Shown piece after piece: positions 23,374-46,898 of a DNA stretch of 64,000 nt. The stretch is taken from contig NZ_NRRD01000001.1 in the NCBI RefSeq assembly GCF_020023995.1, positions 248,001-312,000 on the forward strand, read 5' to 3'. The DNA comes from Rhodobacter sp. TJ_12. Lineage in GTDB: Bacteria; Pseudomonadota; Alphaproteobacteria; Rhodobacterales; Rhodobacteraceae. The translations under genes and the position numbers were made by a program. Each line of letters opens with the position of its first letter. The stretch's first letter is position 1. The notes under the pieces are model-generated. The model saw only the letters and a program-made list of their open reading frames with translations, had not been told where the DNA came from and did not search any database.

Positions 23374-23622
23374 ATGACGTTTGCGCGTTTGGCGGCCTAT
23401 GAGCAGCCGTTGAAATGGTTCGCCCTTACCTTGGGTCTGTGCAGCACCATTTCCATTGTCCAGAACTGGCAATTGGCCGCGATGCTGTTTGGGTTGCCGT
23501 TCTGTTTGATCTGGATTTTCTGTGCTTGGCTGCACGGTGAACGCCAACTCAAATATATCAATATCGTATTTTCCGGGCTTTACGTTTACGGCATCGCGCG
23601 TTTCTTTTGGCTTGTGAGCTGA
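23374..23622 (+). CDS. Small hypothetical membrane protein
   Basis: An 82-residue protein with two to three likely membrane segments (WFALTLGLCSTISIVQNW; AAMLFGLPFCLIWIFCAWL; YINIVFSGLYVYGIARFF) and a short positively charged GERQLK loop. I do not recognise a family. It follows the rpoC terminator, and a GAAAGAAAAAGG precedes the ATG. Its position at the head of a glycolipid cassette, 117 bases before the GT2 gene, suggests but does not prove a role in that pathway. Confidence 0.6.
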   Translation: MTFARLAAYEQPLKWFALTLGLCSTISIVQNWQLAAMLFGLPFCLIWIFCAWLHGERQLKYINIVFSGLYVYGIARFFWLVS

Positions 23623-23739
23623 GACGTTGGCCTTGCGCGCGCTATGCGTTGCCTGCGCCGGGCCTGCGGCACTTTGTTTACAAGCGCGGGGCCGGGCTGT
23701 ATCAGGAGCCGAGCCGCCCTTGGCACAAAGGCCCTTGCC

Positions 23740-24462: not shown

Positions 24463-24770
24463 CCGGATGGTTGGAAAAACTGCTGCATGTCGACAGCACG
24501 ATCGAGCTTTGGTGGGTGATCTTTGGCTTTGCCGCGCAGGCGATGTTCACGATGCGCTTTTTGGTGCAATGGATCGCGTCGGAGCGCGCCAAGGATTCCG
24601 TCATGCCAGTGGCCTTTTGGTATTTCTCGCTTGCGGGGGGGCTGATGCTGCTGGCCTATGCGCTTTACCGCGCCGATCCAGTTTTCATTCTGGGCCAAGC
24701 CCTGGGGGTGATTATCTATTTCCGCAACCTGACGCTGATCCGCCGTGCCAAACGCCGCCCCGAACTCTAA
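24459..24770 (+). CDS. Lipid-A-disaccharide synthase N-terminal-domain (LABN) membrane protein
   Basis: A 103-residue protein of about three transmembrane helices: WWVIFGFAAQAMFTMRFLVQWI, AFWYFSLAGGLMLLAYALYR and PVFILGQALGVIIYFRNL. The RFLVQWIASERAKDSVMPVAFW pattern (split here across helix ends) belongs to the LABN family, usually found beside DPM-type GT2 and ArnT-like genes. The family may help present or flip the polyprenyl-linked sugar. It is coupled to the gene on each side: ATGA overlap upstream and a 26-base overlap with the GT39 gene downstream. Confidence 0.82.
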   Translation: MTGWLEKLLHVDSTIELWWVIFGFAAQAMFTMRFLVQWIASERAKDSVMPVAFWYFSLAGGLMLLAYALYRADPVFILGQALGVIIYFRNLTLIRRAKRRPEL

Positions 24771-26208
24771 GCCGCTGTCTGAGACGCGAGGCTGGTTTGC
24801 CCCGGCGCTGGCGCTGGTTGCAGCCCTTGTGGCGCTGCGGCTTTTGGCGCTGGCCTTCGACCACACCGATATTTTCGTCGATGAGGCGCAATATTGGTTT
24901 TGGGGGCAAAACCTCGATTTCGGTTATTATTCCAAACCGCCGCTGATCGGCTGGCTGTTGCGCGCGGTGACCGATCTGGCCGGGTCAAGCGATCCGTTTT
25001 GGCTGCGCTTGCCGGGGACCTTTTTGCATGCGGCGACGGCGCTGATCTTGGGGGCGCTGGCCGCGCGTATCGGCGGCGCGCGGGCGGGCTTTGCTGCCGC
25101 TGCGGTGTATATCACGGCACCGATGGCGGCTTTGGGGTCTTGGCAGATTTCCACCGATACGGTGATGGCGCCGTTTTTCGCCGCCGCGCTTTTGTATTTC
25201 TGGCGCGCGGGCGAAAGCCGATCTGCGACCCATGGCGCGCTGGCGGGGCTGTTCATCGGTTGCGCCTTCATGGCGAAATATGCTGCGATCTATTTCTGGG
25301 GCGGCGCACTCTTGGCGATGCTGTTTGTGCCCGCGCGGCGGATCGGCTGGCCGGCCTTCGCCGCGATGGTGGGGCTTTTCGCGCTGGTGATTGCGCCCAA
25401 TGTGGTGTGGAACCTGACCCACAAGCTGACCACGGTGCAGCACACGCTGGACAATGTCGGCTGGGTGCGGGCCGGGGCAGGGGCCAATCTGGCCTCGATG
25501 GCGGAATTCTTTGGCTCGCAATTTGCGGTCTTTGGGCCGGTCAGCTTTGCGGCGCTTTTGTGGGGTTATACGCGCTTGGGCGCGCCGCAAAAACGGGCTT
25601 TGATGGCGCTTTCTATCCTGCCGCTGATGGCCGTGACGGCGCAGGCCTATCTGGGCAAGGCGCAAGCGAATTGGGCTGTCGCGGCCTATTTCGCGGGCGC
25701 TGTGCTGGTGGCGCTGGTGCTGCCGCGCCGGGGGCTGTGGCTGGCGCTTGGTTTGAATATGATTGCCTGTCTGGCGGTGCCGGTTTTGATTGTTGCCGCG
25801 CCGTGGCTGGGGCCCGATGAGGCCCCCTGGATGAAGCGCTATCTGGGCCGGGCAGAGCTGTCCACCCGTATCCTTGCCTTGGCCCAGGCCGAGGGGGTGT
25901 CCGTCTATGCGCAAAACCGCGATATTTTGGCCGATCTGTTCCTGACCGGGCGTGAGGTTGTTGGCCAGCCTGAGGGCGTGACCGTTTATGCGCCCCGTGT
26001 TGTGGGGCGGGCGCATAACTACTACGAACAGAATTACGCGCTCCCGCCAGAGTATCGCGGCAAGCTTTTGGTGATCCGTGCGGCGCCGATGGTTTGCGCC
26101 GGCGTCCCGGTGCCGCCAGCGGGGGTGTTGAACGGATCGGGGCATTGGGCGGGCAAGCAGATCACGCCTTATCTTGTGGATGCGGAGTGTCTGGATGCCG
26201 AAACTTGA
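24745..26208 (+). CDS. ArnT-like glycosyltransferase family 39 protein
   Basis: A 487-residue polytopic protein with about ten membrane segments. The first periplasmic loop holds the GT-C signature HTDIFVDEAQYWFWGQNL, with Asp-Glu acting in catalysis, followed by DFGYYSKPPLIGW. ArnT-type enzymes move a sugar from undecaprenyl phosphate to lipid A or another glycan on the periplasmic face. The GTG at 24745 gives MPNAAPNSKPLSETRG and overlaps the LABN gene by 26 bases; a later start is possible because no strong Shine-Dalgarno is seen. With the GT2 and LABN genes it forms a complete load-and-transfer set. The sugar is unknown. Confidence 0.85.
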   Translation: MPNAAPNSKPLSETRGWFAPALALVAALVALRLLALAFDHTDIFVDEAQYWFWGQNLDFGYYSKPPLIGWLLRAVTDLAGSSDPFWLRLPGTFLHAATALILGALAARIGGARAGFAAAAVYITAPMAALGSWQISTDTVMAPFFAAALLYFWRAGESRSATHGALAGLFIGCAFMAKYAAIYFWGGALLAMLFVPARRIGWPAFAAMVGLFALVIAPNVVWNLTHKLTTVQHTLDNVGWVRAGAGANLASMAEFFGSQFAVFGPVSFAALLWGYTRLGAPQKRALMALSILPLMAVTAQAYLGKAQANWAVAAYFAGAVLVALVLPRRGLWLALGLNMIACLAVPVLIVAAPWLGPDEAPWMKRYLGRAELSTRILALAQAEGVSVYAQNRDILADLFLTGREVVGQPEGVTVYAPRVVGRAHNYYEQNYALPPEYRGKLLVIRAAPMVCAGVPVPPAGVLNGSGHWAGKQITPYLVDAECLDAET

Positions 26209-33282: not shown

Positions 33283-33575
33283 GTGCGAAACCCGAACATT
33301 ACGACGTGATCGTGAAGCCCGTCATCACCGAGAAAGCCACTATGGCCTCGGAAGCTGGCGCGGTGGTGTTCCAAGTCGCCAAGACGGCGACCAAACCGGC
33401 GATCAAAGAGGCTGTCGAAGCGCTCTTCGGTGTGAAGGTGAAGGCGGTCAACACCACCATCACCAAAGGCAAGGTGAAACGTTTCCGCGGGGCCCTTGGT
33501 CAACGCTCGGACGTGAAAAAAGCCTATGTCACGCTCGAAGACGGTCAAACCATCGACGTCTCGACCGGCCTTTAA
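33279..33575 (+). CDS. rplW: 50S ribosomal protein L23
   Basis: 98 residues from [20 protein letters not shown], with [20 protein letters not shown] and [14 protein letters not shown]. It lies at the tunnel exit and docks trigger factor and SRP. It is the last gene of the first S10 sub-block: a strong terminator follows 18 bases later instead of the usual rplB. Confidence 0.97.
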
Positions 33576-33592
33576 GGCCAGGCACATGAAAA

Positions 33593-33622
33593 GAAGGCCC
33601 TCGCGCAAGCGGGGGCCTTTTC
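33593..33622 (+). terminator. Intrinsic terminator after rplW, inside the S10 cluster
   Basis: AGGCCCTCGC and GCGGGGGCCT pair over 10 bp (one G-T) around a GCAA tetraloop and are followed by TTTTCTGTTT. It separates rpsJ-rplC-rplD-rplW from the rest of the S10 genes. Confidence 0.85.
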
Positions 33623-33665
33623 TGTTTCTGTGGCGTAAAAGGGAAGGTGCGGTTTGTTGGCCGAT

Positions 33666-34469
33666 TCAGCAGGTATATCCGAAGCGATTCCAGACGCCCT
33701 CACCGTAGCGCGTCCCTCCATGGGCAGCGATGTATTTGCCATTCATATTGACCAGCTTTTGGTGACGCGCCTCAATTTCGAGATGTTCTGTGCGTGGTGT
33801 AAGGTTCAGAAATTGGCCCAGCCGCTCTAGTTCTGTTTCAGAATGGTCAATAAGATCCTCGTAGCGCACAGTGATGCAGTCGCTTTCGTCGAAATCCTCA
33901 AGCGCTTGGCTGTAAGCCACGTTCCAATGCATCATCAGTTCCGGCAGCGTCGTCATCGACCATTTCTGTGTCGCGCCGGCAACCGCGCGCGGATCACGCG
34001 TCATGATGATAAACTGACTGCCTGGGAAAACCTTCCGCAGCCAAGGGATTTTGGTCAGGTTCGGCGGTGATTTTTCGACGAGGGTCGGGCTGTCGCCCAC
34101 GACAAAGGGGCGCCACGCGTCCAAGATCGCCGCGCGATGGGCCGGGTAATCGTCAAGACGGTTCAGTTCCTCCAGAGCCTCGGTGCTGAAAGCAAACCGC
34201 CCGGCGCCGCCGAATCTGAGGGCTGCGGTGAAGACCGACTGAATGTGCTCGCCTTCGCTTTCGGGGGTCGAGGCCCGCAGGCAGGACAGCTCATATTTTG
34301 AGACAAGTAGTCGCTCTAAAAGTGTGGTGCCGCTGCGTTGAAGTCCGCAAATGAAAATGAAACGGTCAATATCGGCGGTATCGTTATACTTCACATCGGG
34401 CAGGCGCTTGGCCCGAACTATCTTGTATTTGCGAAGTCGCGCCTTAAGAGTTCGCCAAGCTATTAACAT
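33666..34469 (-). CDS. Sulfotransferase inserted between rplW and rplB
   Basis: A 267-residue sulfotransferase-fold protein on the opposite strand to the ribosomal genes. The 5'-phosphosulfate loop is FICGLQRSGTTLLERLL near residue 38, and the 3'-phosphate site is QFIIMTRDPRAVAGATQKW near residues 150-170; RYEDLIDH follows. Members transfer sulfate from PAPS to carbohydrates, lipids or proteins. Here a surface polysaccharide or lipid acceptor is likely but unproven. The start ATG at 34469 has a perfect AGGAGG seven bases upstream. Codon composition, especially near the start, looks AT-richer than the flanking ribosomal genes, suggesting horizontal acquisition. Confidence 0.85.
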   Translation of the reverse strand: MLIAWRTLKARLRKYKIVRAKRLPDVKYNDTADIDRFIFICGLQRSGTTLLERLLVSKYELSCLRASTPESEGEHIQSVFTAALRFGGAGRFAFSTEALEELNRLDDYPAHRAAILDAWRPFVVGDSPTLVEKSPPNLTKIPWLRKVFPGSQFIIMTRDPRAVAGATQKWSMTTLPELMMHWNVAYSQALEDFDESDCITVRYEDLIDHSETELERLGQFLNLTPRTEHLEIEARHQKLVNMNGKYIAAHGGTRYGEGVWNRFGYTC

Positions 34470-34670
34470 GCCTATACCTCCTGATTTTCCGGTCTTCCCG
34501 TTAGCAGGATGCCTGAGTGTTAGTTGTCACGGGCCGTCACTGAATGCAACCTTGGGTTGCTGTTCGGTGCAAGTCATTTTGATGCTTGGCTAATTTTCGC
34601 CGCAGTTGCATTCGTTCTGACCAAAACGAAGTCATCGGCACGATCGGGGTGCGCCGGAGCACCTTCTGTG

Positions 34671-34699
34671 TGGACAGGTCGATGCATCCCTGTTATGTC
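34671..34699 (+). promoter_or_regulatory. Candidate promoter of the rplB-rpsS-rplV-rpsC-rplP block
   Basis: TGGACA and TATGTC are 17 bases apart, about 110 bases upstream of rplB. The match is modest. A promoter is needed in this region because a terminator and an oppositely oriented gene separate rplB from rplW. Confidence 0.4.
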
Positions 34700-34712
34700 C
34701 CGCCAATCGCTC

Positions 34713-34742
34713 GGCCCCGGATTCGTCCGGGGTCTGTGATTT
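34713..34742 (+). terminator. Possible leader attenuator upstream of rplB
   Basis: GGCCCCGGA and TCCGGGGTC form a 9-bp stem with a TTCG tetraloop, followed after TGTGA by TTTTT. Lying just downstream of the candidate promoter, it could terminate or attenuate transcription in the rplB leader, or simply be an old terminator remnant. Confidence 0.45.
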
Positions 34743-34812
34743 TTGCACTCGGGGAGCTACGGCGCCCCTTACGTAACGGACCTATGGTCCAGAGCAACGG
34801 AAGACAGAGAGC

Positions 34813-35652
34813 ATGGCACTCAAGTCGTATAAACCGACGACGCCTGGCCAGCGCGGGCTGGTTCTGATCGACCGTTCGGAGCTTTGGAAAGGTCGTCCCG
34901 TCAAAGCCCTCACGCAGGGTTTGACCAAGACGGGCGGCCGGAACAACACCGGACGCGTCACGATGTGGCACAAGGGTGGTGGGGCAAAACGCCTTTACCG
35001 CATCGTCGATTTCAAGCGTCGCAAGTTCGACGTTCCGGCCACGGTCGAGCGGATCGAATATGACCCGAACCGCACCGCCTTCATCGCGCTGATCAAATAC
35101 AGCGACGGCGAACAGGCCTATATCCTCGCGCCGCAACGCCTTGCGGTGGGTGACACCGTCATCTCGGGCGCGAAACAAGACATCAAACCGGGCAACGCGA
35201 TGCCGTTCTCGGGTATGCCGATCGGTACGATCGTCCACAATGTCGAGCTGAAGCCCGGCAAAGGTGGCCAGATCGCGCGCGCCGCGGGCACCTATGCCCA
35301 GTTCGTCGGCCGTGACGGCGGCTATGCCCAGCTGCGTTTGTCCTCGGGCGAGCTGCGCCTTGTCCGTCAGGAATGCTTGGCGACCATCGGCGCCGTTTCG
35401 AACGCCGATCACAGCAACCAAAACCTCGGCAAAGCCGGTCGTAAGCGTCACATGGGCGTGCGTCCGACCGTTCGCGGTGTTGCGATGAACCCGATCGACC
35501 ACCCGCACGGTGGTGGTGAAGGCCGCACCTCCGGTGGCCGTACCCCGGTTACCCCGTGGGGCAAGGACACCAAGGGCAAGCGCACCCGTTCGAACAAGCA
35601 GACCGACAAGTACATCTTGCGGTCGCGTCACGCCAAGAAGAAGGGTCGCTAA
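34813..35652 (+). CDS. rplB: 50S ribosomal protein L2
   Basis: 279 residues with [20 protein letters not shown] near the start and the conserved [18 protein letters not shown] near residue 220, including the histidine important for peptidyl transferase function. First gene of the second S10 sub-block, which here must have its own promoter because the gene before it lies on the other strand. Confidence 0.97.
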
Positions 35653-35655
35653 GAT

Positions 35656-35934
35656 ATGGCACGTTCTCTCTGGAAAGGCCCTTTCGTTGACGCTTATCTG
35701 CTGAAAAAAGCAGAAAAAGCGCGCGCCTCGGGCAAATCCGACGTCATCAAAATCTGGTCGCGTCGTTCCACCATCCTGCCGCAATTCGTCGGCCTCACCT
35801 TCGGCGTCTACAACGGGCAGAAGCACATCCCGGTGAACGTCACCGAAGAGATGATCGGCCAGAAGTTCGGCGAATATTCGCCGACCCGGACCTATTACGG
35901 TCACGCCGCCGACAAGAAAGCGAAGAGGAAGTAA
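35656..35934 (+). CDS. rpsS: 30S ribosomal protein S19
   Basis: 92 residues from [20 protein letters not shown], with [20 protein letters not shown] and a basic tail (DKKAKRK). It binds the 30S head next to S13. It lies three bases after rplB and three before rplV. Confidence 0.97.
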
Positions 35935-35937
35935 GCC

Positions 35938-36318
35938 ATGGGTAAGGAACAGAATCCGCGCCGCGTGGCGGATAACGAAGCCTTCGCGAAAGCGAAGATG
36001 CTTCGTACCTCGCCGCAGAAACTCAACCTCGTTGCCGCGCTGATCCGTGGCAAGAAGGTGGACAAGGCCCTTATGGACCTCACCTTCTCGAAAAAACGGA
36101 TCGCCGAAGACGTGCGCAAGTGCCTGCAATCGGCCATTGCCAATGCTGAAAACAACCATGGTCTCGACGTCGATAACCTGATCGTCGCCGAAGCTTGGGT
36201 TGGCAAAAACCTCGTCATGAAACGCGGTCGTCCGCGGGCCCGTGGCCGGTTTGGCAAGATCATGAAGCCGTTTTCGGAAATCACCATCAAGGTGCGTCAG
36301 ATCGAGGAGCGCGCGTAA
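35938..36318 (+). CDS. rplV: 50S ribosomal protein L22
   Basis: 126 residues with [20 protein letters not shown] and the tunnel hairpin RAEAW-like segment [19 protein letters not shown]. The hairpin lines the exit tunnel at the macrolide site and looks unaltered. Its stop overlaps the rpsC start as TAATG. Confidence 0.97.
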
Positions 36319-37034
36319 TGGGTCAGAAGGTCAACCCCATCGGGATGCGTCTTCAGGTCAACCGCACCTGGGACAGCCGCTGGTTCGCTGAGTCGAAAGA
36401 TTATGGCGATCTGCTTTTGGAAGATCTCCGCATGCGCGAGTTCATCCACAAAGAAGCCAAACAAGCTGGCATTGCCCGCGTGATCATCGAGCGCCCGCAC
36501 AAAAAGTGCCGCGTCACGATCCACGCCGCGCGTCCGGGTGTCATCATCGGCAAAAAAGGCGCCGATATTGAAACCCTGCGCAAGAAGCTGGCGAACTACA
36601 CCGACTCGGAACTGCACCTCAACATCGTTGAAGTCCGCAAGCCCGAGTTGGACGCCCAGCTTGTGGCCGAGTCGATCTGCCAGCAGCTCGAGCGCCGTGT
36701 TTCGTTCCGTCGCGCCATGAAGCGCTCGGTGCAAAACGCGATGCGTATGGGCGCCCTTGGCATCCGTGTGAACGTCGCTGGCCGTCTGGGCGGTGCCGAG
36801 ATCGCGCGGACCGAGTGGTATCGTGAAGGCCGTGTGCCGCTGCACACCCTGCGTGCCGACATCGACTACGCGCTGGACGAAGCCATGACGCCCTATGGGA
36901 TCATTGGTGTGAAGGTCTGGATCTTCAAAGGCGAGATCATGGAACATGATCCGCAAGCCCGTGATCGCAAAGCTGCCGAAGCCCAAGACGGCCCGGCGCC
37001 GCGCGGTCCGCGTCGCGACCGCGACGCTCGCTGA
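36318..37034 (+). CDS. rpsC: 30S ribosomal protein S3
   Basis: 238 residues from [19 protein letters not shown], with the KH-domain [18 protein letters not shown] and the C-terminal half containing [20 protein letters not shown]. The mRNA-entry helicase surface is intact. The ATG at 36318 overlaps the rplV stop; upstream in-frame extensions are rejected because they overlap rplV extensively. Confidence 0.97.
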
Positions 37035-37047
37035 GGAGTGACTTGAG

Positions 37048-37461
37048 ATGCTGCAACCGAAACGGACGAAATTCCGCAAACAGCACAAGGGCCGCATCCA
37101 CGGCGAAGCCAAGGGTGGGTTCAACCTGAACTTCGGCTCCTTCGCGCTGAAGGCCACCGAGCCCGAGCGTGTGACGGCCCGTCAGATCGAAGCGGCGCGC
37201 CGCGCGATCACCCGCCACATGAAGCGTCAAGGCCGCGTCTGGATCCGCATCTTCCCGGATGTGCCGGTCTCGTCGAAACCCACCGAGGTTCGGATGGGTA
37301 AAGGTAAAGGCTCTGTCGATTATTGGGCGGCGAAGGTCAAACCCGGCCGCATCATGTTCGAAATCGACGGCGTGCCGGAGCCGATCGCGCGTGAGGCCCT
37401 GCGCCTTGGTGCGAACAAGCTGCCGCTGATGAGCCGCATCGTCGCCCGCGAAGACTGGTAA
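37048..37461 (+). CDS. rplP: 50S ribosomal protein L16
   Basis: 137 residues: [20 protein letters not shown], then [20 protein letters not shown] and [20 protein letters not shown], with the arginine that is hydroxylated in some bacteria lying in this loop. Last gene of the second S10 sub-block; a terminator follows instead of rpmC. Confidence 0.97.
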
Positions 37462-37483
37462 GTTTCGCAAGCGAAGATACGAA

Positions 37484-37512
37484 AAGACCCCCGCTTCGGC
37501 GGGGGTTTTGTT
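37484..37512 (+). terminator. Intrinsic terminator after rplP, inside the S10 cluster
   Basis: ACCCCCGC and GCGGGGGT pair around a TTCG tetraloop, preceded by GAAAAG and followed by TTTGTTTT. It closes the block rplB-rpsS-rplV-rpsC-rplP. Confidence 0.85.
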
Positions 37513-37556
37513 TTGCGCGCAGGCGCCGCCTTGCCGCGCCGGTCCCGGTTGGGGCG

Positions 37557-38276
37557 TCAGGCTTTCGATTTCAGTTCCACAATCATCAATTTGCAGCGGT
37601 CCTTGCGGTCGGGGAACATCGTGCGCGTCATCACATGGTTTTCGACATCAAGGTAGGAACAGACCAGATCGGCGCGGTCTTCGGTGATAATATCGTCGAA
37701 CACCAAAAGCGCACCCGGTGCAGCCAGTTCGGCGATTTTGGGCAGGTGGCGATGAATTTCAGCGTCGTCATGAGTGGCGTCGCAAAAGATCATCCCGTAG
37801 CTGCGCGCCAGCGGGCATTCTAAGAAATCGCCCCGGATAACATTGGTGACATAGGGCAGCAGGCCGTTGGCCTTGAGGTTCTTGATCAACACCGCAATCG
37901 TGCCGCCGGGGTGGTAGACGGCTTCGGCAACACGCCCTTGGTCTTTATCCAGCCGGAACCGCTCGTTGAATCGCGCCACCCATTCCTCGGCAGAGGTGAT
38001 GCCGAAATCGATCATGTCATAGGCGACCGGCTCATGCCCGTCCTCGTCGATGCGGGCGCGCAGGCCGGTGGCGATGGCCGAAGACGACCGTCCGAGCCAC
38101 GGGCCGATTTCCAGCACCGGGCCCGCGGTGCGCCGTGCCGCATTATGCAAGACAGTCAAATCTTTCGCCGACATCCAACCGTTCGGGTAGCCAAGCGGCA
38201 GGCGCGGCGGGGCATGGGTGAAAAAGCTGGCCCCGAAATCGGCCGCCGACGGTTTAGAAAAATTGGGGGTGTCCAT
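37557..38276 (-). CDS. Class I SAM-dependent methyltransferase inserted between rplP and rpmC
   Basis: A 239-residue protein on the minus strand. Residues 54-62 (VLEIGPWLG) are the AdoMet-binding loop, followed by an acidic strand end (YDMIDF near 86-91). CDATHDDAEIHRHL at 165-178 and LLVFDDI resemble the Methyltransf_24 / macrocin O-methyltransferase group, which methylates sugars and small molecules. The ATG at 38276 has AGAGG eight bases upstream and is preferred to 38348. The neighbourhood suggests a surface polysaccharide target. No relation to ribosome methylation is visible. Confidence 0.78.
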   Translation of the reverse strand: MDTPNFSKPSAADFGASFFTHAPPRLPLGYPNGWMSAKDLTVLHNAARRTAGPVLEIGPWLGRSSSAIATGLRARIDEDGHEPVAYDMIDFGITSAEEWVARFNERFRLDKDQGRVAEAVYHPGGTIAVLIKNLKANGLLPYVTNVIRGDFLECPLARSYGMIFCDATHDDAEIHRHLPKIAELAAPGALLVFDDIITEDRADLVCSYLDVENHVMTRTMFPDRKDRCKLMIVELKSKA

Positions 38277-38542
38277 CAAAACCTCTGCTCGATTGGTGCG
38301 CCCGTCGCCGCGCGCCGGGGCGCAGGGTGCGGGTGCGCGCTGCGGCACAATAGGAAAAGTGAATCAGCTTTCGCGGGGTGAAACAATAGAAATCCGGGGG
38401 GCTTGGCGCGCGCGCCGACGCCGCTGTGAAAGCGGGTCTCGCCAGAATGTGACACATTAATGACGGTTAGGGATTGTGCTTGCGCGTGAGCGGGGGCAAC
38501 AGACGCAGTCGTGACACATGCCTGATATCTTTGAGTGGACAG

Positions 38543-39220
38543 ATGCCGGTTCGGATCGAAAAAGCTGCGGTGAATGGGGTGCCCGGGTGGCGCAAATGGG
38601 TGGAAGATAGCTCGTTGCGGCAACGGTTACAGAAGGGCAACCCGCGCCGCCTCTTCGAAGCAGAGCGCGAAAACTACCATCAGGTGGCCCGCGCCGGGCT
38701 GCCTTTTGCGCGCTTGATCGACGAGGGGAGATCCTATTTCGTCGTCGCGGATGCCGGCGTTACAGTGCGCGCTTTGGCGCGGGCAGGGGCTGCGCAATCC
38801 GCCGAGTTTCGGGTCGCGTTGGAAGCCGCAGCCCGCACATTGGCGCGGCTACACAAGGCCGGGTTCAGCCATGGTCGGCCCAACCTGTGCGATATTTGTT
38901 GGGCGGACAATAAGATCACCTTCATTGATCTGGAAAACTTTGGTCCCAAGCATAATAGCGCCGATGGCCATGCGCGGGATGTGTTGATTTTCTTCTTTGA
39001 CATTTTGGCAGAGCGCGGTGGCGTGGATGACGTGGTTTTGGCGGCTGCTAAGGCCTATCGCGCGGAAGATTACAGCGGAACCTGGGCGCGGGCGCAGGCG
39101 CGGCTTAGACGTTTGCGCCCCTTTGCGCCTGCGTTGCTTTGGCTGACGCGCCCGGTTGCCCATAAGCGGGATTTCCGCGGTATTCCGGGTTTTTTGGCGC
39201 TTTTTGAGATGGACCTTTAA
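38543..39220 (+). CDS. Kinase-like protein of the lipopolysaccharide-kinase (InaA/WaaP) type
   Basis: A 225-residue protein with a protein-kinase-like C-lobe: LARLHKAGFSHGRPNLCDICW (given in two parts: helix, then residues 110-120) and ITFIDLENFG at 125-134, matching the catalytic-loop and metal-binding regions of InaA/Kdo-kinase relatives. The canonical catalytic Asp of the HGD motif is Arg112 here and the usual Asn is Asp117, while the DFG-equivalent Asp129 is kept, so activity is uncertain. Start at 38543 is preferred over 38474. It is divergent from the methyltransferase and reads with the ribosomal genes. Confidence 0.65.
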   Translation: MPVRIEKAAVNGVPGWRKWVEDSSLRQRLQKGNPRRLFEAERENYHQVARAGLPFARLIDEGRSYFVVADAGVTVRALARAGAAQSAEFRVALEAAARTLARLHKAGFSHGRPNLCDICWADNKITFIDLENFGPKHNSADGHARDVLIFFFDILAERGGVDDVVLAAAKAYRAEDYSGTWARAQARLRRLRPFAPALLWLTRPVAHKRDFRGIPGFLALFEMDL

Positions 39221-39247
39221 GGGGCGGGACATTCGGCAAACTTGGGG

Positions 39248-39276
39248 TTGCCCCGAAGGGCGCTTTCCTGTAGGTG
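39248..39276 (+). promoter_or_regulatory. Predicted promoter of the rpmC-rpsQ-rplN-...-rpmD block
   Basis: TTGCCC and TAGGTG are 17 bases apart. The -10 is nearly the same as that of the predicted rpsM promoter (TAGGTC). It lies about 130 bases upstream of rpmC; a 12-bp palindrome GTGCAATTGCAC at 39354-39365 lies in the leader. Confidence 0.5.
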
Positions 39277-39404
39277 ACGGCATCCGCGCCTCCGGTCCCT
39301 TTGGGAATCGGGCGTGGGAGACATAACCCACCGGGCCACAGGTCACCCCAAGCGTGCAATTGCACCCAAGCGGGGCCTTCCGGTGCCAGTAAAGGAACCA
39401 TGGG

Positions 39405-39605
39405 ATGAACGCCCAAGAACTCAAGGCGAAAACGCCTGACGAGCTCCGCGACGCGCTTGTCGCGCTGAAAAAGGAAGCCTTCAACCTTCGCTTCCAGCAA
39501 GCCACCAACCAGCTTGAGAACACCGCCCGCATGCGCGCCGTCCGTCGTGACGTTGCCCGTGTGAAAACGGTGCTCAATCAAAAAGCTGCTGAAGCTGCGA
39601 AGTAA
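39405..39605 (+). CDS. rpmC: 50S ribosomal protein L29
   Basis: 66 residues: [20 protein letters not shown], then [18 protein letters not shown] and [18 protein letters not shown]. It lies at the tunnel exit near L23. First gene of the third block; an AAAGGA sits about eight bases before the ATG. Confidence 0.96.
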
Positions 39606-39616
39606 GGAGACTTCCG

Positions 39617-39850
39617 ATGCCCAAACGTATTCTGCAAGGTGTCGTGACCTCGGATAAGAACGATCAAACCGTGACCGTTCTCGTGGAGCGCCGCTTCAAG
39701 CACCCGGTCATGAAAAAGACCGTGCGTAGCACCAAGAAATACCGCGCGCATGACGCGCTCAACACTTTCAAGACCGGCGACATGGTCCGCATCGAGGAAT
39801 GTGCGCCGATCTCGAAAACGAAGCGCTGGCAGGTCGTCGTCGAAGCCTGA
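39617..39850 (+). CDS. rpsQ: 30S ribosomal protein S17
   Basis: 77 residues: [37 protein letters not shown] and [19 protein letters not shown] short S17 of the usual bacterial type, an early assembly protein of the 30S body. GTAAGGAGAC precedes it; 87 bases separate it from rplN. Confidence 0.96.
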
Positions 39851-39937
39851 TTTTTCAGGCCCGGCGATGGATGACAGTCCATCGAAACCCTGGGACGGCA
39901 AACTGCATAGCTGTTCCCAAAGGTCGGGAGTAACCCA

Positions 39938-40306
39938 ATGATCCAGATGCAGACCAATCTGGATGTTGCTGACAACTCTGGCGCTCGCCGAGTTCAGTGC
40001 ATCAAGGTTTTGGGCGGTTCGCACCGCCGTTACGCATCCGTGGGCGACATCATCGTGGTGTCGGTCAAGGAAGCGATTCCGAAAGGCCGCGTGAAAAAAG
40101 GCGACGTGCGTAAAGCCGTTGTCGTGCGCACCGCCAAGGAAGTCCGTCGCGAAGATGGCACCGCCATCCGCTTCGACCGCAACGCCGCCGTCATCCTGAA
40201 CAACCAGGGCGAACCGGTCGGCACCCGTATCTTCGGGCCGGTCGTGCGCGAGCTGCGCGGCAAGAACTTCATGAAGATCATCTCGCTTGCGCCGGAGGTG
40301 CTGTGA
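39938..40306 (+). CDS. rplN: 50S ribosomal protein L14
   Basis: 122 residues: [40 protein letters not shown], ending [16 protein letters not shown]. It contacts 16S rRNA at bridge B8 and is the docking site of the silencing factor RsfS. Its stop overlaps the rplX start. Confidence 0.97.
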
Positions 40307-40611
40307 TGGCTGCGAAACTCCGCAAAGGCGACAAGGTTGTCGTGCTGACTGGCAAGGACAAGGGCAAGCAAGGTGAAATCTCCACCGTCATGCCCAAGGA
40401 CAACAAGGCCATTGTCGACGGTCTGAACATGGCGATCCGCCATCAGCGTCAAACGCAAACCGCCCAAGGCGGCCGCGTGTCGAAGCCGATGCCGATCGAT
40501 CTGTCGAACCTCGCGCTTGTTGATGCGAACGGCAAAGCGACCCGTGTCGGCTTCCGCTTCGAAGACGGCAAAAAGGTGCGTTACGCCAAGACCACCGGGG
40601 AGGCGATCTGA
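40306..40611 (+). CDS. rplX: 50S ribosomal protein L24
   Basis: 101 residues: [20 protein letters not shown] with the KOW motif, then [24 protein letters not shown] one codon earlier (40303) is also in frame. ATG 40306 is chosen because it forms TGATG with the rplN stop and gives the standard N-terminus. Its own stop overlaps the rplE start. Confidence 0.96.
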
Positions 40612-41168
40612 TGCTCGACCAAGCCACCTATACCCCGCGTCTGAAAGCGCTCTACGCCAGCACCATCCGTGCGGCGATGAAAGAGCAATTCGGCTACAAA
40701 AACGACATGCAGATCCCCAAGCTTGAGAAAATCGTTCTCAACATGGGTGTCGGCGAAGCCGTTAAAGACACCAAGAAAGTCAAGCAAGCCGCTGACGAGC
40801 TGTCGCTCATCGCCGGTCAAAAGGCTGTCATCACCAAGGCCAAGAAATCGATCGCTGGTTTCCGCGTCCGTGAAGAGATGCCGCTTGGCTGCAAGGTCAC
40901 CCTCCGTGGCGACCAGATGTATGAATTCCTCGACCGTCTGATCAACATCGCTATGCCGCGCGTGCGCGACTTCCGCGGTGTGAAACCGAGCTTCGACGGC
41001 CGCGGCAACTTCGCCATGGGTCTCAAAGAGCACATCGTGTTCCCCGAGATCGATTTCGACAAAGTCGACGAAGTTCTCGGCATGGACATCATCATCTGCA
41101 CCTCCACCAACGTGGATGCGGAAGCGAAGGCGCTGTTGAAAGCTTTCAACATGCCTTTCAACGCCTGA
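40611..41168 (+). CDS. rplE: 50S ribosomal protein L5
   Basis: 185 residues with [39 protein letters not shown] and [19 protein letters not shown]. It carries 5S rRNA into the central protuberance. It starts by TGATG overlap with rplX. Confidence 0.97.
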
Positions 41169-41184
41169 TCGCGGAGAGAATTTA

Positions 41185-41490
41185 ATGGCCAAGAAATCCA
41201 TGGTTGAACGCGAAGTGAAGCGCGCGAAGCTGGTGAAGAAATACGCCAACAAACGCGCCTCGCTCAAAGCGATCATCGAAGACCAGAACCTGCCGATGGA
41301 AGAGCGCTTCAAAGCGACTCTGAAACTGGCGGAACTGCCCCGTAACTCGTCGGCCGTGCGTCTGCACAACCGTTGCCAGCTCACCGGTCGTCCCCATGCT
41401 TACTACCGTAAGCTCAAACTCTCGCGGATCATGCTGCGTGACCTGGCCTCGTTCGGCCAGATCCCCGGCATGGTGAAGTCGAGCTGGTAA
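41185..41490 (+). CDS. rpsN: 30S ribosomal protein S14, zinc-free long form
   Basis: 101 residues, the long form without the two CxxC zinc motifs. [19 protein letters not shown] opens the protein and [20 protein letters not shown] with [19 protein letters not shown] closes the fold. A 30S head protein. GCGGAGAG precedes the ATG; 12 bases before rpsH. Confidence 0.97.
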
Positions 41491-41502
41491 GGAGGTCAGG
41501 GA

Positions 41503-41901
41503 ATGTCCGTGAACGATCCCCTCGGCGATATGCTGACCCGCATCCGCAACGCGCAGATGCGCGGCAAGTCCACCGTCCGTACCCCGGCTTCGAAGCTTCG
41601 CGCTTGGGTTCTCGACGTGCTTGCGGCGGAAGGCTACATCCGTGGCTATGAGAAAACGACCTCGGCGACCGGCAAGCCGGAACTCGAGATCAGCCTGAAG
41701 TATTTCGAAGGCACCCCGGTGATCCGCGAGATTGCGCGCGTTTCCACCCCGGGCCGTCGTGTTTATGCTTCGGTCAAGGAAATCCCCTCGGTCCGTCAAG
41801 GCCTGGGTGTTTCGATCGTCTCCACGCCGAAAGGCGTCATGACGGACGCGGCCGCACGCACTGCCAACGTTGGCGGTGAAGTGCTCTGCACCGTGTTCTA
41901 A
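41503..41901 (+). CDS. rpsH: 30S ribosomal protein S8
   Basis: 132 residues: [19 protein letters not shown] at the start and [19 protein letters not shown] near the end. S8 binds the 16S central domain and in E. coli is the translational repressor of the spc operon. AAGGAGG precedes it; 10 bases before rplF. Confidence 0.97.
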
Positions 41902-41911
41902 GGAGGGCCCG

Positions 41912-42445
41912 ATGTCTCGTATTGGTAAAAAACCGGTCGAACTGCCCAGCGGCGTTACCGCCACGCTGAACGGCCAGACCGTTGAAGTGAAAGGGCCGAA
42001 AGGCTCCCGTAGCTTCACCGCCACCGACGATGTGACGATCACGATGGACGGCAACACCGTCACCGTGACGCCGCGCGGCACCTCCAAACGTGCCCGTCAG
42101 CAGTGGGGCATGACCCGCTCGATGATCGAAAACCTCGGCGTCGGCGTCTCCACTGGCTTCAAGAAAGAGCTCGAAATTCAAGGCGTCGGTTACCGCGCCG
42201 CGATGCAGGGCAATGTTCTGAAGCTGTCGCTGGGCTATTCGCACGAAGTCAATTTCGAGGTGCCCGCCGGCGTGACCGTCGCGTGCCCGAAACAGACCGA
42301 GATCACCGTGGAAGGCATCGACCAACAGCTGGTCGGCCAAGTCGCGGCGAATATCCGTGAGTGGCGTCGCCCCGAGCCCTACAAGGGCAAAGGGATCCGC
42401 TACAAGGGCGAGTTCATCTTCCGTAAGGAAGGCAAGAAGAAGTAA
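41912..42445 (+). CDS. rplF: 50S ribosomal protein L6
   Basis: 177 residues from [20 protein letters not shown], with [19 protein letters not shown] and the C-terminal [19 protein letters not shown]. It lies near the GTPase-associated region. The ATG at 41912 follows AAGGAGGGCCCG; the longer frame from 41870 would overlap rpsH. Confidence 0.97.
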
Positions 42446-42456
42446 GGGGCGCGAAA

Positions 42457-42816
42457 ATGGCGAACAACAAAAGAGAGCTGTTCCTCAAGCGCCGCCTGCG
42501 CGTCCGGAACAAAATCAAGGCGATGGCCAATGGCCGCGCCCGTCTGTCGGTGCACCGCTCGTCGAAAAACATCAGCGTTCAGCTGATCGACGACGTCAAA
42601 GGTGTGACGATTGCTTCGGCTTCGACTCTGGAAAAAGAGTTCGGCGTCGTCGGCAAGAACAACGTCGAAGCCGCCACCAAAATTGGTGCGGCGATCGCCG
42701 AGCGGGCCAAGAAAGCCGGTGTCGAAGAGTGCTTCTTCGACCGTGGTGGCTTCTTGTTCCACGGCAAAATCAAGGCGCTTGCCGAAGCAGCCCGCGAAGG
42801 CGGTCTGAAATTCTAA
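42457..42816 (+). CDS. rplR: 50S ribosomal protein L18
   Basis: 119 residues: [36 protein letters not shown] and [20 protein letters not shown]. It binds 5S rRNA together with L5. A 112-base gap with a GGGGGGCG/CGCCCTCCC hairpin separates it from rpsE. Confidence 0.97.
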
Positions 42817-42928
42817 TAGGTGGGGGGCGTTCGCGCCCTCCCGATGATCCGGGGGCCGTGCTTGGCGCGGCCCACTTGGATTGGACCAAACAGGCGTGAC
42901 ACCACGCCGTTCACGAAAGGAATGCCTT

Positions 42929-43489
42929 ATGGCAGAACGTGATAACCGCCGGGGCCGCCGCGAAGAGCGCGAAGAAACCCCGGAATTCGCCGATCGTCTG
43001 GTTGCGATCAACCGCGTGTCGAAAACCGTGAAGGGTGGTAAGCGCTTCGGGTTTGCCGCGCTCGTCGTGGTTGGTGACCAGCGTGGTCGCGTCGGCTTCG
43101 GCAAAGGCAAAGCCAAAGAAGTTCCGGAAGCGATCCGCAAGGCCACCGAGCAAGCGAAACGCTCGCTGATCCGCGTGCCGCTCAAAGATGGCCGCACCCT
43201 GCACCACGACGTGTCGGGCCGTCACGGCGCTGGCAAAGTGGTGATGCGCACCGCGCCGGCCGGGACCGGGATCATCGCCGGTGGTCCGATGCGTGCCGTG
43301 TTCGAAATGCTGGGCGTTCAGGACGTTGTTGCGAAGTCGATTGGCTCGCAAAACCCCTACAACATGATCCGCGCGACCCTCGACGGTCTGAAGCTGGAAG
43401 CCTCGCCGCGTTCCGTTGCCGCTCGTCGTGGCAAAAAGGTCGCCGACATCCTGCCGAAAACCGACGCTGAAGCGCCGGCCGAAGCCTGA
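42929..43489 (+). CDS. rpsE: 30S ribosomal protein S5
   Basis: 186 residues: acidic and basic N-terminal tail [16 protein letters not shown], then [20 protein letters not shown] and [20 protein letters not shown], with an alanine-rich tail. It shapes the mRNA entry and decoding accuracy; the loop where spectinomycin resistance arises (KTVKGGKRF) looks wild type. The start at 42929 follows GAAAGGAATGCC. Confidence 0.97.
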
Positions 43490-43501
43490 GGAGACTGAGA
43501 G

Positions 43502-43693
43502 ATGGCGAAAAAAACCATCGTCGTGCAACAGGTGGCTTCGGCTGCCCGCCGCCCGGCCATCCAGACCGCGACCCTCAAGGGCCTTGGCCTGAACAAGATC
43601 CGCCGCACCCGTGAGCTGGAAGATACCCCGGCTGTCCGCGGCATGGTCAACAAGATCTCGCACCTTGTGAAGATCATCGAAGAGCGCGGCTAA
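43502..43693 (+). CDS. rpmD: 50S ribosomal protein L30
   Basis: 63 residues: [38 protein letters not shown], ending VKIIEERG. Last gene of the third block; a terminator follows instead of the usual rplO. Confidence 0.96.
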
Positions 43694-43716
43694 GCCCGGC
43701 CTTTATGTGCATTGAG

Positions 43717-43747
43717 AAACGCCCCGGCTTGGTCCGGGGCGTTTTTC
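43717..43747 (+). terminator. Intrinsic terminator after rpmD, inside the spc cluster
   Basis: ACGCCCCGG and CCGGGGCGT pair over 9 bp around a CTTGGT loop, followed by TTTTCGTT. It separates rpmC-...-rpmD from rplO-secY-adk. Confidence 0.85.
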
Positions 43748-43781
43748 GTTGGATACTGCCAGCGCCAGACAGGAGGCCGCG

Positions 43782-44114
43782 ATGGATATGAAGCAGCAAA
43801 AAGCCGAGACCGAGCAGATCTTTGCCGAGATTGCTAAGATGGAAGACCTGCCCGCGCGCGCGGTCGTGGCCTTTCAATTCGTGCCCGAAGATGGCAGCGC
43901 CGATTGGGATGCGTTCACCGAGGCGCTTGAGGCGCAGGGCTATGGGGTGGAGTGGTATGAGGCAGAGGATGACGAGGATGAAGACTGCCTTGAAATCACC
44001 ACCCCCGAAATGGCGCTGAACGTGGAGGCGCTTTGGGCCGAGGAAGAAAAGCTGACCGTGCAAGGCGCGGTGCATGGGTTCTTGGCCGACGGCTGGGGAT
44101 TTATGGGAGAATAG
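43782..44114 (+). CDS. RraB-like ribonuclease E inhibitor
   Basis: A 110-residue acidic protein with the RraB-type arrangement: KAETEQIFAEIAKMEDLPAR, a central F-W-x-F strand pair (AVVAFQFVPEDG; DWDAFTEALEAQGYGVEWY), a run of Asp/Glu (EAEDDEDEDCLEIT) and the terminal DGWGFMGE. RraB of E. coli binds RNase E and alters which mRNAs it degrades; inhibition here is inferred from family only. The ATG at 43782 has a perfect AGGAGG five bases upstream. It stands between a ribosomal terminator and the AT-rich membrane protein, with which it may be cotranscribed (three-base gap). Confidence 0.7.
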   Translation: MDMKQQKAETEQIFAEIAKMEDLPARAVVAFQFVPEDGSADWDAFTEALEAQGYGVEWYEAEDDEDEDCLEITTPEMALNVEALWAEEEKLTVQGAVHGFLADGWGFMGE

Positions 44115-44117
44115 GTA

Positions 44118-44810
44118 ATGGCGTCCGAGTTCCGTAGAAAGGAAAGCCGTGCGCAAACCGGGAAATATTATGGCAAGGGCGCGTTTATTTTTTCTGTTTC
44201 TGTCGCAATCTTAGTGGGAGCGTTTATCATAATTTTCGAGAGTAATCTCTCGCCCGCATATTCGATAGATAACCTAAAGAATTTCATCGCACCGGCGGTG
44301 ACCGCTCTTGTAGCGAGTGCCTCTCTCGTCGTCTCATTCGTCGCTCTCAAAGAACAGACGAAGATGCGCCAGGCGGGGACAGACCCAGTGCTCATTGCTC
44401 ATCTTGGGGAAGACCCAGATCAACCCTCATTAGTCCGGTTACGAATAACAAATGTAGGGGCAGGGGCAGCAATGAATGTAAGTATGCGTTCGGATATGGA
44501 TTTGTCATCGTCTCCAAAGCGACTTACTGGGAAAACATTTGATACGCCCTTTGTGCGAGGGGAGGCTGTTATTAGAACAATATTGCAGGGCAATTTTGTT
44601 TCGTACAACTTAGGCTTGGGATTTGAGTTGCTTCAGGATCCCGCTCTTCCTCCTTTTAAGGTAAGCTTGAGATATCAGGACATTGAGGGTGTGCAATATA
44701 GCTCATCTCATTTGATTGATGTTACAGAGTTGGCAGGGCAACCTGCAAATGAGCCGCCACTTATGAAAATTTCACGCTCGCTCGAAAAGATCAGCAATAA
44801 GCTGAAGTAA
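44118..44810 (+). CDS. AT-rich hypothetical protein with two membrane segments
   Basis: A 230-residue protein of unknown function. Two transmembrane helices lie near residues 20-38 (GAFIFSVSVAILVGAFIII) and 55-78 (NFIAPAVTALVASASLVVSF), followed by a short coiled stretch (ALKEQTKMRQ). A cytoplasmic or periplasmic beta-rich domain opens TDPVLIAHLGEDPDQPSLVR and contains LRITNVGAGAAMNVSM; the N-x-G-x-G-A-A-x-N-V pattern recurs in many uncharacterised bacterial membrane proteins. The base composition is plainly AT-richer than anything nearby and uses TTA, ATA and AGA codons that the neighbours avoid, indicating recent acquisition. Three bases separate it from the RraB-like gene. Confidence 0.7.
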   Translation: MASEFRRKESRAQTGKYYGKGAFIFSVSVAILVGAFIIIFESNLSPAYSIDNLKNFIAPAVTALVASASLVVSFVALKEQTKMRQAGTDPVLIAHLGEDPDQPSLVRLRITNVGAGAAMNVSMRSDMDLSSSPKRLTGKTFDTPFVRGEAVIRTILQGNFVSYNLGLGFELLQDPALPPFKVSLRYQDIEGVQYSSSHLIDVTELAGQPANEPPLMKISRSLEKISNKLK

Positions 44811-44832
44811 ATAGGTTGCGCCTACTGGCGGC

Positions 44833-44862
44833 TTGACCGCACCACCTCCCGGCGTCTATACG
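44833..44862 (+). promoter_or_regulatory. Predicted promoter of rplO-secY-adk
   Basis: TTGACC and TATACG are separated by 18 bases, immediately downstream of the AT-rich gene and about 98 bases upstream of rplO. This is one of the better promoter matches in the window and lies where normal GC content resumes. Confidence 0.6.
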
Positions 44863-44959
44863 CCCCCGGTGGCCTCTCTCGGGGCTCAGAATCAACAAGA
44901 AATGCCGTGTGTGCTCCGGTTTCGCTTCCGGGGGCATTGTCCGGCAAAGGAGAAGCGAT

Positions 44960-45427
44960 ATGAAACTGAACGAACTGCGCGACAATGCTGGCGCCGCCAC
45001 CAAGAAAAAACGCATCGCCCGTGGCCCGGGCTCGGGCAAGGGCAAGATGGGTGGCCGTGGTATCAAAGGCCAAAAGTCGCGGTCTGGTGTGGCCCTGAAC
45101 GGTTACGAAGGCGGCCAAATGCCGCTCTACCGGCGTTTGCCGAAGCGCGGCTTCAACAAGCCGAACCGCAAGGCCTTCGCCGTTGTGAACCTCGGCCTGA
45201 TCGAGAAATTCATCGGCCTTGGCAAACTCGACGCCTCGGTGGAAATCACCGAAGACGCGCTGGTTGCGGCGGGTCTGACCTCGCGCAAGCTCGATGGCAT
45301 CCGCGTGCTTGCCAAAGGCGAAATCTCCACCAAGGTCACGCTGAACGTGACCGGTGCTTCGAAAGCGGCCATTGAGGCCGTGGAAAAAGCCGGTGGCAAA
45401 CTGACCGTTGCTGCTGCGGCCGAATAA
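44960..45427 (+). CDS. rplO: 50S ribosomal protein L15
   Basis: 155 residues: [20 protein letters not shown], then [10 protein letters not shown]-like [20 protein letters not shown] and [20 protein letters not shown] late assembly protein of the 50S. Start at 44960 follows AAAGGAGAAGCGAT; the longer frame from 44909 is rejected. It precedes secY by 103 bases. Confidence 0.97.
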
Positions 45428-45530
45428 TCGGTTGTGGGCGGGGCCATCCCCGCTTACATAGGCAACAGTTTTCCAGGCGCCGCCGACCGGGAAACGGTCG
45501 CGCGGCGCCTTACGCATGAAAGAGACGGGT

Positions 45531-46898
<1,368 letters not shown>

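Follow-up and report, generated by a model that had tools for sequence, protein, structure and literature searches.

The S10-spc cluster is a textbook example of conserved gene order. In the window, a stretch of 64,000 nucleotides of Rhodobacter DNA, non-ribosomal genes lie within this cluster at three junctions, rplW|rplB, rplP|rpmC and rpmD|rplO. The first-pass annotation had placed a terminator after each of rplW, rplP and rpmD, followed by one or two non-ribosomal genes, and both features were recovered, with predicted terminator hairpins at 33592-33621, 37488-37505 and 43720-43741. The terminator after rplW (33592..33636, plus strand) is the last stretch that the window shares with L081, the nearest relative in the sample, ahead of the cargo, a sulfotransferase gene on the minus strand (33666..34469; PF13469, 3.1e-27). 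Before rplB a promoter-like pair of modest score (7.9), TGGACA-17-TATGTC, was present on the plus strand (34671..34699); R. maris carries TAGACA-17-TATGCC at the identical distance from rplB. A hairpin with a T run, of a kind also held by many empty rplW|rplB junctions, forms the head of the rplB leader (34713..34743, plus strand). The leader RNA (34751..34810, plus strand) precedes the second unit, rplB-rpsS-rplV-rpsC-rplP (34813..37461, plus strand).

The terminator after rplP (37488..37517, plus strand) consists of the hairpin and a T tract, and is common to the window and L081 up to 37517. Two cargo genes follow, one for a Methyltransf_24 protein on the minus strand (37557..38348; PF13578, 1.5e-7) and one for a Kdo/WaaP-kinase-like protein, below the Pfam cut-off, on the plus strand (38474..39220). 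The promoter-like pair before rpmC, TTGCCC-17-TAGGTG (39248..39276, plus strand), has a weak -10 element. It was identified by eye, as a similar pair stands 128-129 nt 5' of rpmC in six relatives (L081-L086); the script itself ranked a different site highest in the window, 218 nt upstream. A leader RNA with a bulged hairpin (39326..39388, plus strand) stands before the third unit, rpmC-rpsQ-rplN-rplX-rplE-rpsN-rpsH-rplF-rplR-rpsE-rpmD (39405..43693, plus strand). All features at the last junction are on the plus strand: a terminator hairpin with a T tract (43720..43750), the gene for RraB (about 43782..44114; PF06877, 1.1e-11), a gene for an uncharacterised 230-aa protein (44118..44810) with a G+C content of 46.8% versus 60.7% for rplB-rplP, a strong predicted promoter, TTGACC-18-TATACG (44833..44862), and a leader RNA (44895..44962) whose hairpin is joined by a pseudoknot with the bases just 5' of the start codon of rplO (44960..45427), the first gene of the fourth unit (rplO-secY-...). 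A plain sigma-70 scan of the window, which accepted only -10 hexamers ending in T, called none of the three promoter-like pairs; it gave 3 promoter-like sites versus 5.1 in shuffled sequences.

Junction widths were determined in 191 non-identical Rhodobacteraceae loci, and a junction of more than 400 nt was counted as open. The rplW|rplB junction was open in 67/176 loci, rplP|rpmC in 100/166 and rpmD|rplO in 79/118, against a single open case among 2996 at the remaining 18 junctions of the rpsJ-secY stretch in the same loci. This pattern changed little with cut-offs of 300-800 nt. All junctions of the rpsJ-secY stretch stayed within 400 nt in the 20 loci sampled from other alphaproteobacterial families, where the widest gap was 287 nt. 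Within the sample, the opening of the string at these three positions was confined to Rhodobacteraceae. The sample included 100 family loci picked by hand from the matches (one per genus, contigs with context being favoured), the 20 loci of other families picked likewise, and 80 named loci that were the best 80 of 584. The description of the junctions as tolerated docking sites, or safe harbours, in the first-pass annotation agrees well with these counts.

Terminators were then scored in a fixed window past each stop codon. They were predicted after rplW in 141/176 loci, after rplP in 156/189 and after rpmD in 128/156 (80-83%), compared with at most 18/171 (≤11%) in the identical window for any of the remaining 18 genes of the rpsJ-rplO stretch. 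Filled junctions had a predicted terminator in 52/52 (rplW|rplB), 60/71 (rplP|rpmC) and 48/54 (rpmD|rplO) cases, for which shuffled sequences gave expectations of 3.2, 2.6 and 1.7, respectively. Junctions of up to 140 nt gave no terminator call in 12/28, 4/10 and 10/14 cases in the same order. Promoter scores of at least 10 were reached in 28/52, 53/71 and 50/54 filled junctions and in 2/31, 14/26 and 10/14 empty ones of 141-400 nt; as the weights were set by hand after the sequences had been inspected, these counts are biased towards the pattern already seen, and short empty gaps offer little space for promoter detection. The shuffled sequences were obtained by Markov sampling, with 20 replicates per locus in the promoter comparison and 10 in the terminator comparison. 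As motifs, the marks of an operon boundary, a putative terminator upstream and a putative promoter downstream, were present at the junctions, with the promoter at rplW|rplB found mainly in filled loci. The earlier claim of a promoter-like restart at each cut is borne out in the window, where candidate pairs precede rplB, rpmC and rplO, with the qualification that among 59 empty rplW|rplB junctions only three scored 10 or more. Since 40 of these 59 have a hairpin and hardly any a promoter, the hairpin there must either allow read-through or work as an attenuator.

The content of the junctions differed between close relatives. Differing junctions were found in 28/51 close pairs at rplW|rplB, 43/64 at rplP|rpmC and 17/27 at rpmD|rplO; these are counts of pairs and not of independent events, and many come from Ruegeria. 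Even sister pairs with 98-99% identity differed in content. On the downstream side the likeness of close pairs extended over a median of 174, 158 and 101 nt 5' of rplB, rpmC and rplO, respectively. On the left side at rplW|rplB it mostly went no further than the stop codon, with a median of 4 nt, which suggests that the terminator is frequently swapped as well; left likeness between the window and R. maris (L082) also stopped at the stop codon at rplP|rpmC. The expectation that the cargo would differ in related genomes while terminator and promoter stay was thus largely borne out, except for the frequent exchange of the terminator at rplW|rplB. On the ribosomal-protein tree at least 27 changes between the empty and the filled state were required at rplW|rplB and at least 14 at each of rplP|rpmC and rpmD|rplO.

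The cargo comprised 432 ORFs from all family loci, including nine repeats of identical loci, which fell into 254 clusters, 205 of them singletons. The purpose-made ORF caller, with a minimum length of 80 aa and a filter on codon-position G+C, missed the AT-rich ORF at 44118-44810. Of 173 cluster representatives of at least 100 aa, 125 were scanned jointly, and ten more, mostly from the largest clusters, separately. The 125 matched 103 Pfam families, each represented by at most two members, and the 25 listed families were varied; no Pfam family found in two members was a transposase or integrase. Among 25 of the 40 matched PHROG families that were listed, there was one transposase and no integrase. 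The junctions were also considered as defence islands, but the 125 representatives matched just 14 PADLOC families, 12 of these in one member. Outside the named set, 165 cargo genes were on the plus and 138 on the minus strand. Many different gene families were found at each site between conserved genes, as in a hotspot.

In 17 genomes of the same genus, neither the sulfotransferase (33666-34469) nor the Methyltransf_24 protein (37557-38348) had a match at E≤1e-20, and the 230-aa protein (44118-44810) had none at E≤1e-5. A 66% relative of the Methyltransf_24 protein occurred at rplP|rpmC in L112, which belongs to another genus, and the Kdo/WaaP-kinase-like gene is common to the window and six near relatives. 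RraB (at rpmD|rplO in 15 tree loci) and a 2OG-Fe(II) oxygenase (at rplP|rpmC in 48 tree loci) are long-term residents; the tree requires at least 7 flips in the orientation of the oxygenase. Shared clusters were confined to one junction in 38/42 cases versus 12.1 expected, a fidelity that descent with loss also predicts.

The rplO and rpmC leader RNAs consistently adjoined the 5' side of their ribosomal protein genes. The rplB leader of the window scored 36.3 bits against RF03142 (L2-Alphaproteobacteria; E 6.8e-6), below the gathering score of 37.8, and is therefore said to resemble this family and not to belong to it; loci of seven relatives, in which RF03142 was the only Rfam family at gathering scores, exceeded that score in four cases. 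For the rpmC and rplO leaders a known family was sought in Rfam up to E 5 across 33400-45600, and no match overlapped them. Both had a conserved structure with compensatory changes. With structures derived from the same alignments as the covariation figures, 94.2% of cells were paired in the rplO leader versus 82.5% after shuffling and 33-49% after sliding, and 104 cells were changed on both sides versus 24.5; the figures for rpmC were 96.8% versus 89.9% and 41-53%, and 77 versus 16.8. The rplO covariance model gave 71 matches in the 100 family loci, one per locus, including 67/67 with rplO located, and one match at E≤0.001 in the genome of the window, while a crude stem pattern found only 59/118 rplO leaders. 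Run against the window, the rpmC model had a single match with E below 0.28. Its alignment contained 70 of the 82 leaders extracted, after removal of 12 that had been cut wrongly, and omits 11 loci with GGAAAAGC, nine of which have another leader type; the remaining two (L116 and L165) have the usual type and were filtered out.

The cargo diversity, the breakpoints between close relatives, the terminator and promoter motifs and the leader covariation make it very probable that in Rhodobacteraceae the S10-spc cluster is split into four units, rpsJ-rplC-rplD-rplW, rplB to rplP, rpmC to rpmD and rplO-secY onwards, and that the three junctions host gain, swap and loss of accessory genes between a terminator and a restart. 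At the junctions the upstream unit would have acquired an intrinsic terminator and the downstream unit a structured leader RNA, joined in many lineages by a promoter at rplP|rpmC and rpmD|rplO, but at rplW|rplB mainly in filled loci. As terminator and promoter flank the spacer, an insert there would leave the ribosomal transcripts intact, and accessory genes could enter, be exchanged and disappear in either orientation. We infer that these terminators and promoters function in the cell, and that the cargo arrives through homologous recombination between the conserved flanking ribosomal genes and not with a mobile element. The leaders probably bind ribosomal proteins and repress translation.

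Several other explanations were weighed. A mobile element with site-specific integration aimed at the three junctions would account for insertions that recur at fixed positions; the near absence of transposases and integrases from the listed PHROG and two-member Pfam families, which single cases may escape, makes it very improbable. An ancestral layout, with identical extra genes fixed in place since the origin of Rhodobacteraceae, had been named beforehand as the ordinary alternative and would suit the wide occurrence of the oxygenase and RraB. It is scarcely tenable given the 254 cargo clusters, most of them singletons, the three of five window cargo genes that were unmatched in the same genus at the thresholds used, and the differing sister pairs. 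The same two residents would fit a cargo retained for a ribosome-linked role (RNase E regulator RraB, 2OG oxygenase, methyltransferase) and sited for co-expression, but cargo on both strands, the variety of the families and the flips of the oxygenase render this quite improbable.

It is also improbable that there are no true cuts, with the hairpins serving as attenuators within a single transcript and the cargo being tolerated through read-through. The empty rplW|rplB junctions, with many hairpins and few promoters, speak for such an arrangement, but cargo on the minus strand and the promoter motifs that most filled loci have ahead of rpmC and rplO speak against it. A generic turnover, in which any boundary with a terminator and promoter acts alike and ribosomal genes are not special, is only somewhat unlikely and is largely a weaker phrasing of the preferred explanation. 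In SAR11 rearrangements cluster at operon boundaries, according to the passages retrieved from PMC2217521, and rpoC|rpsL was open in 5/8 cases. The tuf|rpsJ boundary, with a predicted terminator in 40% (a rate that the method underestimates where the gap spans a few bases), was likewise open in 15/135. Against this reading, tuf|rpsJ (11%), adk|rpsM (4/64) and fusA|tuf (2/66) were open less frequently than the three junctions (38-67%).

A bolder form of the split-cluster explanation is offered tentatively, as possible though likelier to fail than to hold. The four units would be self-contained modules, each equipped with a terminator, a promoter and a leader RNA of its own that represses it. 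The leaders of rplO, with its pseudoknot, and of rpmC, with its bulged hairpin, would represent two undescribed classes. The spacers would act as cassette sites that work without a recombinase, where incoming DNA is exchanged through recombination between near-universal ribosomal genes and is perhaps supplied by the gene transfer agents of the family. The repeated opening of the cluster at exactly three sites offers a natural experiment in operon splitting. As the inserts are located at a terminator and restart, conserved order elsewhere may depend on unbroken transcription more than on position. The spacers are also candidate neutral insertion sites beside highly expressed genes in Rhodobacter, and the rpmC and rplO leaders are two candidate regulatory RNAs.

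Autogenous ribosomal-protein leaders with pseudoknots are known from E. coli, for S4 of the alpha operon and for S15. The leaders described here are likewise structured RNAs 5' of a ribosomal operon, in the case of rplO with a predicted pseudoknot that contacts the ribosome-binding region, but those of rplO and rpmC have structures of their own. RF03142, to which the rplB leader is similar, is a candidate rated '?' in PMC7247131 (Eckert and Weinberg, 2020), and its description in the retrieved passages is given without a link to a junction of variable genes. Among the listed matches from open-licence papers without supplements, none dealt with Rhodobacteraceae S10-spc inserts or with rpmC or rplO leaders there; the retrieved parts of PMC8625941 and PMC2864571 held nothing on the three junctions, and those of PMC3478194 describe islands with ribosomal genes in Bacteroidetes and Shewanella. 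The changes in SAR11 (PMC2217521) are likewise concentrated at operon boundaries, but as presented in the retrieved text this is a general statistical effect in which no ribosomal cluster is split. A further parallel is offered by the integration hotspots flanked by core genes of PMC5635113 (Oliveira et al., 2017), in whose main text the word 'ribosomal' does not occur. As far as the retrieved passages go, these hotspots also combine high gene turnover with a fixed site between core genes, many are without integrases or other mobile elements, and recombination in the flanking genes was proposed for them. In contrast to them, the three sites described here lie in one S10-spc ribosomal cluster, are bounded by a predicted terminator and a predicted promoter with leader, and had their turnover followed mostly between genera.

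In the window, which lies in a 3.58-Mb genome whose nearest named relative among the matches listed was Rhodobacter maris JA276 (L001), the S10-spc ribosomal genes were in the usual order and were interrupted by non-ribosomal genes at rplW|rplB, rplP|rpmC and rpmD|rplO. Each of rplW, rplP and rpmD was followed by a terminator hairpin, and rplO was preceded by a strong promoter-like pair, TTGACC-18-TATACG. The pairs before rplB and rpmC were weaker, and close relatives had similar pairs at equal distance. All three elements that the first-pass annotation had described at these junctions, terminator, foreign gene or genes and promoter restart, were present, the terminators and promoters as sequence motifs. 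A plain promoter scan of the window reported none of the three pairs before rplB, rpmC and rplO; this would be explained by the -10 boxes of Rhodobacter, which commonly lack the final T. Upstream, a Rhodo-rpoB leader RNA (RF03074) was located before rpoB (14677-14767, 70.7 bits), and four non-ribosomal ORFs, one of them glycosyltransferase-like by eye, were present between rpoC and rpsL (23374-26208).

Gaps between genes were measured in 80 named loci (the best 80 of 584), 20 from the window's genus and its neighbouring genera, 100 of the family (one per genus) and 20 of other alphaproteobacterial families. After identical copies were dropped, 191 of 200 Rhodobacteraceae loci remained, in which gaps of more than 400 nt occurred at rplW|rplB in 67/176, at rplP|rpmC in 100/166 and at rpmD|rplO in 79/118. 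The 18 other junctions from rpsJ to secY yielded one such gap in 2996 (418 nt, in locus L160). In the 20 other-family loci the largest rpsJ-secY gap was 287 nt, and the median gaps at the three junctions were 12, 11 and 36 nt. Neighbouring boundaries were less open (tuf|rpsJ 15/135, adk|rpsM 4/64, fusA|tuf 2/66); rpoC|rpsL exceeded 400 nt in 5 of 8 loci, few extending that far. The rplW|rplB gap was just 24-27 nt in loci L142, L145, L154 and L069, as in other alphaproteobacteria, representing either the old state or re-fusion. Longer gaps were also found family-wide at rpsQ|rplN (about 76 nt), rplR|rpsE (about 113 nt) and rplO|secY (about 104 nt), with few terminators and almost no filling; further leaders or promoters may be present there.

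Using an identical fixed window downstream of every stop codon, a terminator was called in the family loci after rplW in 141/176, after rplP in 156/189 and after rpmD in 128/156, compared with 54/135 after tuf, 18/171 after rpsJ and, for the 17 remaining genes of the rplC-rplO stretch, 0-8% each. With promoter weights that were set by hand after inspection of the same sequences, a score of at least 10 was reached in 28/52, 53/71 and 50/54 filled junctions (rplW|rplB, rplP|rpmC and rpmD|rplO, respectively), and in 2/31, 14/26 and 10/14 empty junctions of 141-400 nt. Empty junctions of up to 140 nt, which have little room for a promoter, gave 1/28, 0/10 and 0/14. Against shuffled versions of each stretch, 30/52, 56/71 and 53/54 filled junctions had p<=0.05. 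The restart is thus often present without cargo at rplP|rpmC and rpmD|rplO, while it accompanies cargo at rplW|rplB. A hairpin with a T run, possibly an attenuator, headed the rplB leader in the window (34713-34743) and at many empty rplW|rplB junctions, even where no promoter was called.

The window and its closest sampled relative (L081) shared sequence up to the rplW stop and over a further 61 nt that take in the terminator; an unrelated stretch followed, and likeness came back 125 nt before rplB. At rplP|rpmC likeness stopped 56 nt past the rplP stop and resumed 864 nt before rpmC, so the kinase-like gene is common to both; at rpmD|rplO it extended through RraB, broke, and resumed 108 nt before rplO. 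Comparison with R. maris (L082) gave the same result at rplW|rplB and rpmD|rplO, and at rplP|rpmC likeness stopped at the stop codon. Among close pairs (identity >=93%) the layout differed in 28/51, 43/64 and 17/27. Measured back from the start codons of rplB, rpmC and rplO, the shared right flank had a median length of 174, 158 and 101 nt, so the right breakpoint fits promoter plus leader at all three junctions. The shared left flank (medians of 4, 64 and 419 nt past the rplW, rplP and rpmD stops) agrees with a left breakpoint at the terminator in rplP|rpmC and at the end of RraB in rpmD|rplO, and indicates frequent replacement of the terminator, too, in rplW|rplB. The expectation that the inserted gene differs while terminator and promoter stay largely held, with qualifications at rplW|rplB, where the terminator frequently changes as well and a promoter is seen mainly with cargo.

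Cargo ORFs, predicted with a rough ORF caller, numbered 432 and formed 254 clusters, 205 of them singletons. A Pfam scan of 125 cluster representatives matched 103 families, each in at most two members; defence families were few, and one transposase occurred among 25 listed of 40 matched PHROG families. Strands were mixed (165 plus, 138 minus in loci outside the named set). Singleton cargo averaged 2.4 G+C points below the ribosomal genes, while larger clusters were not poorer. Across a 127-locus tree, at least 27 changes between empty and filled were needed for rplW|rplB and at least 14 for each of the other two. Of 42 clusters present in at least two loci, 38 were confined to one junction (expected 12.1; maximum of 20 in 500 label shuffles), which is consistent either with exchange via the flanking genes or with descent accompanied by loss. 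The window's sulfotransferase, methyltransferase and 230-aa protein had no match in 17 other same-genus genomes at the thresholds used; sulfotransferase relatives (32-34%) were found in two genomes outside the genus, and RraB and the kinase-like gene are also carried by relatives. A PF13759 2OG-Fe(II) oxygenase was a long-term resident of rplP|rpmC near rplP (48 tree loci, e.g. L104:6014-6637), on either strand, with at least seven orientation changes on the tree.

The rplB leader of the window resembled RF03142 (L2-Alphaproteobacteria, rated '?' in PMC7247131) at 36.3 bits, under the 37.8 required (E 6.8e-6); the family scored above gathering in 4/7 relatives' loci. The rplO leader is a predicted hairpin whose loop would pair with the bases immediately before the start codon, and the common rpmC leader a predicted bulged hairpin. 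Pairing was possible in 94.2% of cells for rplO (68 sequences; 82.5% shuffled, 33-49% slid) and 96.8% for rpmC (70 sequences; 89.9% shuffled, 41-53% slid), a partly circular test, as the structures were derived from the same alignments. Stronger evidence comes from the compensatory changes: 104 cells had changes on both sides vs 24.5 for rplO, and 77 vs 16.8 for rpmC. The rplO model gave a single match (E<=0.001) in the genome that contains the window, and matched in 71/100 family loci, including 67/67 with rplO located, and, under strict filters, in 2/114 genomes of a class-wide sample, both Rhodobacteraceae. On the 20 other-family loci the rplO model reached E 0.09 at best, and the rpmC model gave nothing better than E 0.8. 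Five bases complementary to those preceding the rplO start codon were present in 118/118 loci (expected 19.4) and 1/20 of other families. Empty junctions held 27 of the 68 rplO leaders and 19 of the 70 rpmC leaders, filled junctions 41 and 51. A second rpmC leader type, TTGGAAAAGC ... CTTCT then GA or AA, unlike the common one in sequence, occurred in L110, L120, L133, L134, L142, L145, L166, L179 and L180, at junctions of 91-128 nt with no promoter called.

Rhodobacteraceae thus have three family-specific, terminator-marked junctions with leaders, at which unrelated genes turn over between ribosomal units. Transcription would stop and then restart at the junctions, so that inserts would cost little, and a ribosomal protein may tune each unit through the leader. 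Cargo probably enters via recombination between the conserved flanks, and the gene transfer agents of Rhodobacteraceae are a possible route. For other bacteria, PMC5635113 reports recombination at the core genes on either side of hotspots that lack mobile elements. Among the open-licence papers listed by the literature searches, none was found to report hotspot, boundary turnover and leaders combined inside S10-spc; each of the three, gene-turnover hotspots free of mobile elements, turnover at operon boundaries and ribosomal leaders, is a known kind by itself.
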